Below are positions 26,030-38,535 of a DNA stretch of 38,535 nucleotides, piece by piece. The DNA is from an uncultured archaeon (lineage in GTDB: Archaea > Halobacteriota > Methanosarcinia > Methanosarcinales > Methanoperedenaceae). The position numbers and the translations under genes are program-made. The stretch lies in the NCBI GenBank assembly GCA_902386255.1, contig CABMII010000062.1, positions 1 through 38,535 of the forward strand. Reading direction: 5' to 3'. The notes under the pieces were generated by a model. The model was not told the DNA's origin and did no database searches. It worked only from the letters and a program-made list of their open reading frames with translations. Positions within the stretch are counted from its first letter, which is position 1; each line of letters begins with the position of its first letter.

Positions 26030-26102
26030 AACAACGAACTAATACGAACTAGTACGAACTCCCATGGCGTGAGTTCGTATCAGTTCGTACGAGTTAGTTG
26101 TT
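26030..26102. repeat. Long hairpin repeat 1, arms with 10-bp period
   Basis: Two 32-base arms (26030-26061 and 26071-26102) match in 27 of 32 positions around a 9-base loop. Each arm is itself built from direct repeats of CGAACT spaced exactly 10 bases apart, so recognition faces would align on one side of the helix. A second copy begins 169 bases downstream. This is neither a CRISPR nor a terminator. Confidence 0.85.
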
Positions 26103-26116
26103 GATTTTTTCATATC

Positions 26117-26182
26117 AGGACGCAAAGAACGCAAAGCAGCGCAATATTTACTTTGTGACCTTCGCGCTCTTTGCGGTGAAGG
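26117..26182. repeat. Interspersed 'CGCAAAG' repeat, copy 1
   Basis: The sequence runs from ACGCAAAGAACGCAAAGC to TTCGCGCTCTTTGCGGTGAAG, an imperfect inverted repeat of the CGCAAAG/CTTTGCG type. A related copy with the same words is at about 27148-27214. Such short imperfect palindromes occur in many genomes between genes. Confidence 0.6.
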
Positions 26183-26198
26183 ATTTTGCACAAACATT

Positions 26199-26271
26199 AA
26201 CAGCGAACTAATACGAACTCGTACGAACTCCGTCGGCGTGAGTTAGTACCAGTTCGTACGAGTTAGTTGTT
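26199..26271. repeat. Long hairpin repeat 2, arms with 10-bp period
   Basis: Second copy of the hairpin at 26030: arms 26199-26230 and 26240-26271 (26 of 32 positions pair or match) with a 9-base loop. The left arm is nearly identical to that of copy 1, while loops and some arm positions differ, including changes on both arms that keep the overall fold. Confidence 0.85.
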
Positions 26272-34294: not shown

Positions 34295-34302
34295 TGATTT
34301 AT
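34295..34302. repeat. Left 8-bp target-site duplication
   Basis: TGATTTAT immediately left of the transposon end GGTTCTG; an identical copy is at 37077-37084 right of the other end. Confidence 0.9.
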
Positions 34303-34353
34303 GGTTCTGTTAAGTCTGCGTGGGATATGAAAGGGTGTTAACTGTAGTGGGAT
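34303..34353 (+). repeat. Left terminal inverted repeat with two motif copies
   Basis: GGTTCTGTTAAG, 4 bases, CGTGGGAT (34319-34326), then GTTAAC (34337-34342), 4 bases, GTGGGAT (34347-34353). The GTTAAS-N4-(C)GTGGGAT unit appears twice, 28 bases apart, as expected for tandem transposase-binding sites. Confidence 0.85.
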
Positions 34354-34361
34354 GAAAAAAA

Positions 34362-35588
34362 TTATTTATTCGATTTTGAAGAGTTACAAGTCTTATGTGT
34401 TATTTGCGCATTTTTCAATTCGGTTTTTCCACCTTTACTATGAGGGACTATGTGGTCTAATGAATAATCTTCCCATTTTACTTCCTTACCACAAACACCA
34501 CATTTCTTTTCCTTTGATAACTCCCAAAATATCCTTCTTTCTTCATCATTAAAATCTCTTTTTGAGTCTTTTGCTACTAAATGAGGAATCAGAAGGCTTC
34601 TTAAAATTACAGTTTTCGTTCCCCTGCTTTCTTTATTTGCCCTTCTTGTCAGTTGTGCTTCATAATAACTCTGTACATTTGGGGCTGAGAAATCTTCTGT
34701 GCTAAGCTTTTCCGAGAATTTTTCTAAATCCGCTCTAATATTTTCGGCTCCTTCATCCGAGAAATGATAATTCTCAATTAAATCTGAGAAAGCAACGAAT
34801 AAACTATAATAACTCAATTTATCATGCCATCTTGTCGGTTTCAAATCTCCAACGATTTCATCTATTTTTGATTTAACTTTTAAAAATTTGTTTTTTATTG
34901 TATTTTTCTCATCGAACTTAACATCATAAACTCCATAGAATTTATCGATTAAATCTGGCTCTTTGGGTTGAATCCCATGCAAGAGTGCTATTAATAACTC
35001 ACTAACGAACTCTACATCAATCATTCGCCTTATTTCAGCGGCATTAACTATTCTTTGTTCTGCCCAGTACTCATCATCCGCTAATTCAGAAGCCAACTGG
35101 ATAAAATGACCTGTGAATGTTGCATTTCTAAGTTCTTGTCTTGTTAGAGGGACTGCATTCTTATTCAAACGCTGAAATACTGCCCTAATATCTGCATCAT
35201 TATTAGTTTTAAGTTCCCTTACAACTAATGCATAGTCCCATATTTCAGTCTTGATGCCGTCGGGTAATTGAGAAAATTCTTTGCCCCCATATTCTTGGCT
35301 ATCTTCTTCGAGTATCTCGAACTCCCCGTCCACATACTCTAATATTGACCGTATCCTCTGTTGACCATCAACAACAATATATTTGGTATTGCCGTCCTTA
35401 TCTGTCTTTATTTGCACGAATATTTCCGGTATCGGGAAACCACGCACAATCGTATCTATAAGATATGATTTGTTTTTTAAGCTCCAAACAGGCTTGCGTT
35501 GGAACGGTGGGTGAATTATAAGGCTACCCTCTTTGTTCCTTTGGTAGAACCAAGTTACTCTCTGGGTCGTTGGCGGTGAATTGTCCAT
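34362..35588 (-). CDS. DUF262-HNH (GmrSD-like) nuclease, transposon cargo
   Basis: A 408-residue protein. The N-terminal DUF262 domain shows FQRKPVW (29-35) and the catalytic-type DGQQR (74-78), which in GmrS-like proteins belongs to the nucleotide-using ParB-like fold. The C-terminal 48 residues are an HNH nuclease: CGVC (C363, C366), DHIVPHS (D378, H379, H383), then H398 and C401. DUF262 proteins with nuclease tails are found in type IV restriction and phage defence against modified DNA. Inside this transposon it would be cargo, perhaps protecting the host or helping the element persist. It ends 59 bases from the left end and starts at the ATG at 35588. The stretch from 35589 to 35662 holds no further gene. 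Confidence 0.88.
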   Translation of the reverse strand: MDNSPPTTQRVTWFYQRNKEGSLIIHPPFQRKPVWSLKNKSYLIDTIVRGFPIPEIFVQIKTDKDGNTKYIVVDGQQRIRSILEYVDGEFEILEEDSQEYGGKEFSQLPDGIKTEIWDYALVVRELKTNNDADIRAVFQRLNKNAVPLTRQELRNATFTGHFIQLASELADDEYWAEQRIVNAAEIRRMIDVEFVSELLIALLHGIQPKEPDLIDKFYGVYDVKFDEKNTIKNKFLKVKSKIDEIVGDLKPTRWHDKLSYYSLFVAFSDLIENYHFSDEGAENIRADLEKFSEKLSTEDFSAPNVQSYYEAQLTRRANKESRGTKTVILRSLLIPHLVAKDSKRDFNDEERRIFWELSKEKKCGVCGKEVKWEDYSLDHIVPHSKGGKTELKNAQITHKTCNSSKSNK

Positions 35589-35662
35589 AATCTCGCCGAA
35601 ATATTAGTGGCTTTGTTTAAATAGTCATCTTTTCATCAGAATCTTAACTTCTCACGAGAGCA

Positions 35663-35794
35663 TTATCGTTTTAAGCCACGTTGGATTAATTTTACAACCG
35701 CTTCATTATTATTTTTAAGTCCGTAGTCTATCCTAAATTTAAGTACTTCTTTCCAAAGGTCTTCATCAACATCGAGAATAAGCTTTTTTGCCAT
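35663..35794 (-). CDS. 43-residue ribbon-helix-helix regulator
   Basis: A 43-residue protein (MAKKLILDVDEDLWKEVLK ... NNNEAVVKLIQRGLKR) with a beta strand (KLILDVD), helix 1 (EDLWKEVLKFRIDYGL), turn (KNNN) and helix 2 (EAVVKLIQRGLKR), the pattern of CopG/Arc/MetJ-type dimeric repressors. It lies between the cargo gene and the transposase, divergent from the transposase, with 10-bp direct repeats just upstream of its ATG and of the transposase. It likely represses both its own promoter and the transposase. It could also be an antitoxin to an unidentified toxin, but no partner is seen. Confidence 0.75.
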   Translation of the reverse strand: MAKKLILDVDEDLWKEVLKFRIDYGLKNNNEAVVKLIQRGLKR

Positions 35795-35887
35795 TATTAA
35801 CACCTATTAATAACTATTAATGGAAAACTATTTAAAGTCTGTGGTCAATCTTATTAATAACAATTAATAACTATTAACAAAAAAGAG
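35795..35887. promoter_or_regulatory. Bidirectional promoter with 10-bp-spaced operators
   Basis: Between the regulator and transposase starts, two clusters of the word TATTAAYAAC repeat every 10 bases: TATTAACACC/TATTAATAAC/TATTAATGGA around 35795-35824, and TATTAATAAC/AATTAATAAC/TATTAACAAA around 35852-35881. The 15-base ATTAATAACTATTAA occurs exactly at 35806-35820 and 35863-35877. A TATA-like CTATTTAAAG at 35828-35837 lies between them and can read both ways. The 10-bp phase is what two or three ribbon-helix-helix dimers binding side by side need. Confidence 0.7.
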
Positions 35888-37069
35888 ATGATTAAAATGA
35901 TTACCGATACCGACATGCAAACCGTAGGCACAAGAGAGGATAGAGGAAAAGCAATAGCAGAAAAAGACGGTCAAATAATAAGAATTAATGACTACTCATA
36001 CAAGGTTAAATCGCAATCAAGTTATACTCTTTATGATATTATTTCAACTGAAATAGGCTGGAAATGCACATGCCCTGACCACACTTCCAGAGGGGTAAAA
36101 TGCAAACATATCTTTGCGGTTGAGTTTAGTTATGCGATACGCAAGCAGGTTGAAAAGGTAAGAATCGAGCCTATCACAACAATAAACCCGACAGCATGTA
36201 TCCTTTGTGGTTCTGCAAACATCGTAAAGGATGGATTAAGACATAACCAATATGGTGATATTCAGGTATTTTTTTGTAAAGACTGCTCACAACACTTTAC
36301 CTTAAATCTCGGATTTGAAAAAATGAAAGCCAGCCCGCAGACAATAACCACGGCAATGCAACTGTATTTCTCTGGGGAATCCTTGAGAAATGTAGCCAAG
36401 TCGTTAAGACTTTTGGGCGTGAAAGTTACGCATGTCGCAGTTTACAAATGGATTGAGAAATACACGCTTTTGATGGAGCAATACTTAGAGCAAATAAAAC
36501 CTCAAGTCTCTGATACTTGGCGAGCCGACGAGGTTTTTGTTAAATTCAGTGGTAATATGAAATATCTGTTTGCCTTAATGGACGATGAAACAAGGTTCTG
36601 GATAGCCCAAGAAGTTGCAGGTACAAAATACAAACATGATGCGAGAAGTCTTTTTGCTATGGGGAAGGAAGTTACAGGTAAAAGACCTAACGTCCTCATA
36701 ACTGATGGACTGCCAGCTTATCACGATGCCTTCAATAAGGAGTTTTATACACGCTCAAACCCCAAATCCAAGCACATCAACGCCATAAAACTGGATGGCG
36801 ATATGAATAATAACAAAATGGAGAGGATAAACGGAGAGATAAGAGATAGGGAAAAGGTCATGCGTGGATTAAAGAAGGATGATACGTCAATTCTTAGAGG
36901 TATGCAGATATACCACAATTTCATCAGGACACATGAAGGGCTTAATGGTAAAACACCTGCCGAAGCATGTGGAATAGAGGTAGTCGGAGAAAACAAGTGG
37001 ATAACCCTAATCCAGAATGCCAGCTATCCCACGCTGGTTAACAGTAGAATCCATCCCACGACATCTTAA
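35888..37069 (+). CDS. IS6-like DDE transposase with N-terminal SWIM finger
   Basis: A 393-residue transposase. Its N-terminal region contains a SWIM finger (C60-x-C62 ... C72-x-H74) and a second zinc site (C104, C107, C130, C133), followed by a helix-turn-helix (about 163-190). The DDE core fits IS6: WRADEVFVKFSGNMKYLFALMD with Asp214, LITDGLPAY with Asp273 and the NNKMERINGE motif with Glu312. Standard IS6 transposases are about 230-240 residues; the added SWIM and zinc modules make this one much longer. The frame opens at the ATG at 35888 (a second ATG follows three codons later) with no strong ribosome site. The stop at 37067-37069 lies within the right inverted repeat. Confidence 0.9.
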   Translation: MIKMITDTDMQTVGTREDRGKAIAEKDGQIIRINDYSYKVKSQSSYTLYDIISTEIGWKCTCPDHTSRGVKCKHIFAVEFSYAIRKQVEKVRIEPITTINPTACILCGSANIVKDGLRHNQYGDIQVFFCKDCSQHFTLNLGFEKMKASPQTITTAMQLYFSGESLRNVAKSLRLLGVKVTHVAVYKWIEKYTLLMEQYLEQIKPQVSDTWRADEVFVKFSGNMKYLFALMDDETRFWIAQEVAGTKYKHDARSLFAMGKEVTGKRPNVLITDGLPAYHDAFNKEFYTRSNPKSKHINAIKLDGDMNNNKMERINGEIRDREKVMRGLKKDDTSILRGMQIYHNFIRTHEGLNGKTPAEACGIEVVGENKWITLIQNASYPTLVNSRIHPTTS

Positions 37070-37076
37070 CAGAACC
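37026..37076 (-). repeat. Right terminal inverted repeat with two motif copies
   Basis: Read on the minus strand from 37076: GGTTCTGTTAAG, 4 bases, CGTGGGAT (37060-37053), then GTTAAC (37042-37037), 3 bases, CGTGGGAT (37033-37026). It mirrors the left end, with the two units 27 bases apart. Confidence 0.85.
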
Positions 37077-37084
37077 TGATTTAT
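37077..37084. repeat. Right 8-bp target-site duplication
   Basis: TGATTTAT directly after the right end of the transposon, identical to the copy at 34295-34302. Confidence 0.9.
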
Positions 37085-37141: not shown

Positions 37142-37413
37142 AATGCAGGAAGAATTGGCAGATACAGCGATTCTATTCTTTATTCCACATTGATGCCCTG
37201 CTATCTTTGCGCCGGGGCGGTTGTCCAGTTCGGGATTAAGAAAGTGATTGCGGGAGAGTCCGAGACCTTCGCGGGCGCGAGAGAATTTATGGAATCGCAT
37301 GGTGTTCTTGTCGTCGATCTGGACATTGATGAGTGCAAGCAATTGATGAGGGAGTTTATTAGGAAATATCCTCAGGTGTGGAATGAGGATATCGGAAAAC
37401 TTTGAGTGGTGGT
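37142..37413 (+). pseudogene. Truncated deaminase copy 2
   Basis: A 272-base copy of the 3' half of the intact deaminase gene at 31625, about 92% identical with no insertions or deletions and the same stop (37403-37405). It keeps the zinc motif PCYLC but lacks the first 57 or so residues, including the catalytic HAE, so it cannot be active. Most differences are silent third-position changes, which suggests it diverged as part of a working gene before being truncated. It is not an exact repeat such as a fresh integration site. Confidence 0.9.
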
Positions 37414-37453
37414 ATATCAAAGAACTTATACGCTGGCAGGCTATTACAGATGC

Positions 37454-38275: not shown

Positions 38276-38409
38276 AGAGGTATTTAAGGAATCGCATGGG
38301 GTTCTGGTGGTCGATTTGAACATTGATGAGTGCAAGCAAGTGATAAGGGATTTATAGGGAAATATCCTCAGGTGTGGAATGAGGATATCGGAAAACTTTG
38401 AGTGGTGGT
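38276..38409 (+). pseudogene. Deaminase copy 3, decayed fragment
   Basis: About 134 bases matching the last part of the deaminase gene, from GGAATCGCATGG (38288-38299) to TTTGAGTGGTGGT, with extra substitutions and small deletions that break the frame (GGATTTATAGGG). It shares ATATCGG and the ending GGTGGTA with copy 2, so it is closer to that copy than to the intact gene. The remaining bases to the window end (38410-38535) hold no gene that I can see. Confidence 0.85.
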
Positions 38410-38535
38410 AAAACCGGAGTTTATAAGAAATCATCAAAATCAAATAGCAGCGCTAAGTAAACTGTGGGTCTAACAAAATCTTTATTCAGTTGGGAATGAA
38501 TGTTCCAAGCTGAAGTTTGCCAAAAATTTCCGCCG

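Follow-up and report, generated by a model that had tools for sequence, protein, structure and literature searches.

The window analysed here, a stretch of 38,535 nucleotides taken at its full length, contains a complete IS6-like element of 2774 bp (34303–37076). The element is bounded by terminal inverted repeats of 24 bp (left, 34303–34326, plus strand; right, 37053–37076, minus strand), its ends GGTTCTGTTAAG...CGTGGGAT agreeing at 20 of their first 24 positions, and by an exact 8 bp target site duplication, TGATTTAT, whose left copy (34295–34302) is identical to the right copy (37077–37084). Within it lie, in order, a cargo gene, a 43-codon gene, an intergenic region of 102 bp and a gene for a SWIM-domain transposase; the first two of these genes are on the minus strand and the transposase gene has the opposite orientation. 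The small gene and the repeats beside it, which an earlier note on this DNA had assigned to a transposable element, are with these inverted ends and this duplication found to sit inside a complete one. Just to the right of the element, a direct repeat of ∼130 bp (37285–37414 and 38282–38410, 88–97% identical, ∼996 bp apart) is accompanied by deaminase-like coding remnants.

The transposase (35897–37069, plus strand, 390 aa; Pfam and NCBIfam) has a SWIM-like and zinc-finger N-terminus and a DDE domain. DDE_Tnp_IS240 scores 55.8 bits, above the Pfam cut-off of 27, while SWIM is sub-threshold (16.9 bits, cut-off 19.6). The NCBIfam IS6 equivalog model falls just below its cut-off (116.9 bits as against 125), and we therefore name the element IS6-like. 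Two further hallmarks of IS6 are present, namely short inverted ends starting GG with CTGTT (GGTTCTGTTAAG at both ends) and an 8 bp target duplication (TGATTTAT on either side). Ahead of the transposase gene stands a Shine–Dalgarno-like GAGATGAT (35885–35892, plus strand), common to several relatives with differing upstream repeats.

As far as extracts of two sources on IS6/IS26 go (PMC7986276, PMC6807381), the likeness consists of the DDE_Tnp_IS240 domain, ends of the GG-TTCTGTT type and the 8 bp target duplication, whereas the SWIM-like domain and zinc finger at the N-terminus, the diverse cargo and the element's own divergent regulator set the elements described here apart, as does the score under the NCBIfam cut-off. 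The extracts of the IS6 review (PMC7986276) name a single IS6 member with a passenger gene, ISDsp3, and the word ‘repressor’ occurs nowhere in its main text; this agrees with the remark in the earlier note that a switch of its own is unusual for IS6. Harmer and Hall (PMC6807381), in the extracts used here, set archaeal IS6 apart from bacterial IS6.

The cargo gene (34362–35588, minus strand) encodes a protein of 408 aa with a GmrSD_N (DUF262) domain (85.9 bits; Pfam cut-off 33.2) and an HNH nuclease domain (41.2 bits; cut-off 21.4), whose best PADLOC match is NsnA (E 5.7e-42). Lying ∼75 bp downstream of the 43-codon gene and read from the same strand, it may be co-transcribed with the regulator gene and hence also come under the regulator's control. 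The cargo proteins of two related elements match PADLOC NsnB (L078, E 2.6e-38) and SoFic (L171, E 4.6e-95), and by these PADLOC matches the cargo of all three elements looks defence-like.

A small predicted ribbon-helix-helix protein and its phased repeats

The 43-codon gene (35663–35794, minus strand) runs from an ATG at 35794 to a stop at 35663; an alternative start, a GTG at 35803, would add three residues, and a Shine–Dalgarno-like AGGTG ends 6 nt ahead of the ATG. Its product matches no Pfam or NCBIfam profile, ribbon-helix-helix (RHH) profiles included, nor does it match DUF2080 (PF09853, NF033496), and comparison with PDB sequences returned repeat-protein noise and nothing informative. 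An AlphaFold model made with a six-row alignment (mean pLDDT 83.5) has an extended N-terminus followed by helices at residues 11–24 and 29–42; a model made without alignment (mean pLDDT 77.7) has helices at 11–24 and 30–41. When the model was compared with solved structures by Foldseek, ArtA and NikR led (best E 0.22, prob 0.98), and re-alignment (VIA) gave NikR, CopG, Arc and MazE-type antitoxins, with Z values from 5.7 downwards. No match reaches a Foldseek E of 0.001 and every Z is below 8, as is expectable at such small size; the assignment draws its weight from the agreement of the leading structural matches and not from single scores. The protein is predicted to be an RHH protein, and the RHH pattern that the earlier note had picked out in the translation is borne out by the strand-helix-helix arrangement in the AlphaFold models and by the leading fold matches.

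By sequence, the links that place the protein in a family appear weak, with few close RHH homologues. The nearest relative is the N-terminus of a 489 aa open frame in genome G051 (44% over 39 residues), followed by the regulators of L203 (BLASTP E 6e-6) and L191 (4e-5), and clustered relatives match RHH_1 or RHH_6 only below the Pfam cut-off. L037 and, in G051, L036 have an RHH-like domain fused to the N-terminus of a protein of ∼480 residues; the fusion in L037 (oriented-locus minus strand, from ∼2505) bears weak DGQHR/DndB similarity. Upstream of the RHH-fusion gene in G051, ACCATCAACA stands twice in tandem at a 10 bp step. Because the transposase search found no full-length relative of the window transposase in G051, the regulator may travel with cargo too.

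Two candidate operator clusters, each consisting of three WATTAAY boxes on the plus strand at a 10 bp step, lie in the intergenic region. The left cluster (35795–35821; boxes starting at 35795, 35805 and 35815) overlaps the Shine–Dalgarno sequence of the regulator gene, and the right cluster (35852–35878; boxes starting at 35852, 35862 and 35872) stands just before that of the transposase gene. The earlier note had reported six TATTAAYAAC words at an exact 10 bp step. The step is indeed exact and the grouping is three plus three, but exact copies of the full word stand at 35805 and 35852 alone, with the other four boxes matching 9, 7, 9 and 9 of its 10 positions, and it is the 7 bp core WATTAAY that is exact in all six. 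Between the clusters a TATA-like TATTTAAA (35829–35836) can be read on both strands and is the presumed core of a shared promoter, so that the clusters, as had been claimed, flank this putative promoter with one on either side. Each cluster would cover one transcription start region, with the left one also overlapping the ribosome site of the regulator. Spacing was usable in 83 relatives; in 44 of these the best-scoring TATA-like octamer starts 26–40 bp ahead of the transposase start codon, and for the regulator start codon the count is likewise 44 of 83.

The spaced triple WATTAAY-N3-WATTAAY-N3-WATTAAY occurs twice in the 2,601,349 bp genome, both times here, and its reversed control does not occur. 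We generated 20,000 dinucleotide shuffles of 35663–35887 and counted WATTAAY triples at any step of 7–15 bp on either strand; one triple appeared in a single shuffle and two triples in none. When any 5-mer present three times at a constant step was counted, the real sequence had two such series, and among 3,000 shuffles 69 had one and none had two. AT-rich drift, to which the earlier note had allowed the repeats might be due, is insufficient by both measures, and the genome-unique triples together with the shuffles led us to reject it as their source. Elsewhere in the window, outside the element, CGAAC repeats at a 10 bp step are found at 26034–26205.

Recurrence and exchange of the regulator cassette

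The transposase was searched for in 185 genomes of the order, in GTDB contigs (30 loci) and in IMG/VR (3 loci), and the transposase alignment in 250 genomes from the order of Nitrosocosmicus genome G188, 81 of which match at E ≤ 1e-60; for Nitrososphaerales, the best-scoring 60 regions were taken from a longer match list. After removal of duplicates and of loci with <150 bp upstream, 115 near-full-length open transposases were retained and three interrupted or truncated ones (L041, L047 and L051) were added by hand; those left out include one locus at a contig end (L045), two interrupted ones (L074, L077), two fragments (L052, L053) and two that did not pass selection (L186, L202). The resulting 118 loci come from 69 genomes or records, in a selection that favours high scores.

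Upstream of the transposase, 106 of the 118 loci carry a small gene that is divergently oriented and belongs to one of several recurrent classes, and 12 are without a class. The classes are RHH-A (24), AbrB (24, a class that merges several subfamilies), PKW (19), RHH-B (16), to which the window regulator belongs, Zn-ribbon (10), DUF2080 (3) and five classes of two each; PKW, wHTH and YLYY are labels coined here, for which folds were judged by eye. The AbrB and DUF2080 classes have members that score above the Pfam cut-offs (MazE_antitoxin and DUF2080, respectively), RHH and Zn-ribbon members have sub-threshold Pfam matches only, and a search with the PKW protein gave no Pfam match. The DUF2080 regulator of L061, for example, scores 34.8 bits with PF09853 (cut-off 21.5) and 65.1 with NF033496 (cut-off 22). 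As a control, ORFs were clustered on each side of the transposase in the 115 loci; a clustered divergent ORF was present in 99, as compared with 4 downstream of the transposase on the plus strand and 11 convergent to it, while the 56 found on the co-directional upstream side include a genuine small acidic ORF as well as antisense shadows of regulators. The limits of 53 of the 118 elements are set by inverted ends together with an exact 8 bp duplication; a classified regulator is present in 46 of these 53, and in all 46 it is inside the ends. One viral-contig element, L086, has neither palindromes nor regulator.

Intergenic repeats beyond those of shuffles (p ≤ 0.02) were found in 46 of 99 elements, 7 of the 106 classified loci being too short or unreadable, as against 1 of 106 transposase-coding controls; the other 53 of the 99 lie above p 0.02 by a repeat statistic that rewards three copies. 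The palindromes of PKW elements (ATCTACGTAGAT, ATCCACGTGGAT, ATCCGTACGGAT, ATCACCGGTGAT, ATCTACGGAGAT and ATACGTACGTAT) have outer bases alike and a variable core, and in one AbrB group the repeats are TTAGGTACCTAA, TTAGGCACCTAA and TAGGCGCCTA. Since the repeats vary within PKW and within AbrB, specificity appears to change inside a regulator family as well as through replacement.

A tree of 115 transposases, 103 of them with a class, requires no fewer than 53 changes of regulator class; the minimum would be 10, and the mean for shuffled labels is 65.4. Class thus shows some clustering on the tree but is by no means simply inherited with the transposase. Among 17 pairs whose transposases are ≥85% identical, the regulators are dissimilar in 14 and of different class in 10. 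Thus L191 and L126 have transposases 92% identical and regulators of the RHH and Zn-ribbon type, respectively; L056 and L055, from the same genome, combine transposases 90% identical with Zn-ribbon and RHH-C regulators; and L073 and L070, again from one genome, have transposases 94% identical and two AbrB-class regulators that are 24% identical. When eight pairs were aligned, similarity in the DNA of the transposase gene (76–87%) set in no more than ∼25 bp from the start of that gene in seven, whose promoter regions are unrelated. The exception is L073/L109, in which the regulator gene is also shared and the sites have drifted. L191 and L126 have a further 199 bp in common at 95%, farther upstream on the left side.

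Operator similarity tracks the regulator more than the transposase. The partial Mantel correlation between regulator and operator, given the transposase, is 0.268, and that between transposase and operator, given the regulator, is a weaker 0.112; in each case 0 of 1,000 permutations were as high. This correlation reflects gene and sites travelling together, for which co-transfer alone suffices and which does not imply binding. Where transposases are ≥80% identical, a 12-mer (≥11 of 12) is shared by 85% of the 13 pairs with similar regulators and by 30% of the 20 pairs with dissimilar ones. The earlier note had reasoned that loss of the reading frame from close relatives in which the repeats stay would tell against a regulator. 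In close relatives, frame and repeats are instead replaced jointly, a different small gene of regulator-like type standing there with repeats of a different kind, although in L120, L128, L166 and L168, among the 118 loci, palindromes are kept and no regulator gene is detectable. What had been read as the property of a single element is a family-wide exchangeable cassette.

Proposed repression of the transposase and its alternatives

For insertion sequences, the known modes of control act mostly through the transposase protein, through variants of it or at the level of translation. At this locus, the 43 aa RHH gene, its operators and the shared divergent promoter probably form a self-contained, exchangeable autorepressor–operator cassette that silences the transposase. 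RHH dimers would array at the 10 bp step on both box clusters, which would overlie two start regions, one for the regulator/cargo transcript and one for that of the transposase; once bound, the protein would stop initiation, thereby capping its own synthesis and silencing the transposase, and a new or unsilenced copy would transpose until repressor accumulates. Across SWIM-domain IS6-like archaeal elements this slot is occupied by various small proteins of DNA-binding type, every one paired with candidate sites of its own, and regulator and sites are swapped as one unit beside the conserved transposase. We read the protein as a repressor of itself and of the transposase because the two genes are divergent, the sites lie between them and TATA-like octamers are found at 26–40 bp in 44 of 83 relatives on each side; DNA binding, repression and autoregulation, like any role in exclusion between copies, are inferred. 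CopG/Arc/NikR-type RHH repressors offer a likeness in the predicted strand-helix-helix fold and the arrays of short boxes; the 10 bp step of WATTAAY boxes and the lack of a close sequence relative in solved structures distinguish the protein described here.

The small protein might instead regulate the defence-like cargo, as a restriction control protein or in an antitoxin-like manner, with the transposase affected only as a promoter neighbour. Regulator and cargo genes of the window point the same way, and the regulator may therefore also, or mainly, serve the cargo; moreover, L037 and G051 have an RHH domain fused to a larger cargo-like protein, and antitoxins commonly have RHH or MazE folds. 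Across the family, however, cargo is freely variable and the transposase start is the constant neighbour. In 20 of the 46 delimited elements with a classified regulator, there is no co-directional ORF of ≥90 aa starting within 400 bp of the regulator stop, a size limit that smaller toxins of a type II toxin–antitoxin module would escape, and this makes cargo less likely as the regulator's purpose; in L148_3062 and L178, both delimited, the transposase is the only ORF of ≥90 aa. We consider it improbable that control of the cargo is what the protein is for.

We give still less credence to the idea that the protein does not repress transcription but assists transposition, as an architectural or targeting factor. 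Small DNA-binding accessory factors are known from other transposons, a precedent for such a role, and the regulator adjoins the transposase in nearly all elements. Nevertheless, the repeats are in the promoter region and not at the ends; among 42 delimited elements, the operator word (≤1 mismatch) was found 4 times in the terminal 150 bp of both sides, compared with 1.25 in shuffles, and the triple of the window genome is confined to the promoter region. On this scarcity of operator words at the ends we rejected an end-binding accessory role. A chance ORF amid AT-rich drift is scarcely credible, for although 43 codons are short and without Pfam match, the fold prediction and the Shine–Dalgarno-like site speak against it, and the genome-unique phased triples, the shuffles and the divergent slot conserved across relatives (99 of 115, as against 4 and 11) led us to reject it.

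Immunity and relation to known systems

If the cassettes are autorepressors, it is possible, if somewhat doubtful, that these elements are heteroimmune transposons, in which each repressor–operator specificity silences itself and newcomers of the same type, so that numerous copies blind to one another coexist in one genome. Escape from resident repression would then come about by taking up a cassette whose DNA-binding fold is different or, alternatively, by the operator core drifting jointly with the repressor. Were immunity to shape coexistence, pairs from the same genome would be expected to share specificity less, which is not the case: similar regulators are found in 8 of 69 within-genome pairs and 500 of 5184 between-genome pairs, and, where transposases are ≥70% identical, in 4 of 14 and 28 of 120, respectively, with no depletion in either comparison. 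These counts lend no support to the expectation that copies within one genome avoid having a specificity in common.

Repressor/operator immunity regions are known from the transposing phages Mu and D108. The immunity regions of phages would be the nearest functional analogue of the cassettes. Those of cluster A mycobacteriophages, according to extracts of PMC6550527, likewise comprise a compact autoregulatory repressor with element-specific sites, are exchanged beside conserved recombination machinery and diversify in specificity within repressor families. Exchange of regulator and operators together, beside conserved machinery, was found in the present family also. In contrast to phages, these are archaeal IS-like elements of 2–5 kb without lytic genes, unrelated folds fill one slot, no same-genome avoidance was seen, and cross-immunity is hypothetical.

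One class of regulator in the slot, that of L061, belongs to the DUF2080 family transposase-associated proteins (PF09853, NF033496), for which the label ‘transposase-associated protein’ is already known; the window protein differs in having no match to this family. The DUF2080 gene was located by motif search in 17 of 30 loci (L205–L234), and its neighbours in these 17 were transposase-like, some on the same strand, or unrelated, none being of the transposase family studied here. IS-like transposons of thaumarchaea, which in the extracts of PMC6563490 belong to IS elements of 13 families in these hosts, are there typically of one or two genes; those extracts mention no regulator cassette and give composite passenger-gene transposons as undetected in archaea. 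In the open-licence literature we found no published account of this cassette and, among the matches listed, no paper on Methanoperedens IS6 elements; nor did it yield a relevant paper on DUF2080 or transposase-associated proteins, on archaeal IS with AbrB or RHH proteins, on operator-based transposon immunity, or on RHH proteins with transposase expression.

What we rate as new is that small archaeal transposons would exchange unrelated folds within a probable autorepressor cassette, autorepressor cassettes as such being already known. If the proposal is true, the immunity logic of phages would extend to small transposons by way of plug-in cassettes with several unrelated DNA-binding folds, and about a hundred compact candidate repressor–operator pairs would be at hand for archaea. 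It would also become testable whether selection against cross-repression drives the diversification of transposon regulators.

The survey brought out some further features close to the transposase start. In 13 of the 118 loci (L121, L127, L142, L143, L152, L153, L156, L164, L168, L170, L190, L193 and L196), a conserved acidic mini-ORF of ∼30 residues (like MTTEQLRxEMDADEFAEFLAxxEARREMExD) ends at most ∼20 bp from the transposase start. It coexists with PKW, RHH-A, RHH-B or RHH-C regulators or with none, a variety which suggests that it accompanies the transposase and not the cassette. In L157 and L163, stretches that by eye are similar and in part tRNA-like replace the cassette ∼40–120 bp upstream of the transposase; ARAGORN did not confirm a tRNA gene there, its sole hit being at 656–744 in L157. 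L154 (2968) and L176 have an AbrB-like coding stretch upstream, co-directional with the transposase and followed by TATGGYRCCATA palindromes, a variant of the cassette layout.
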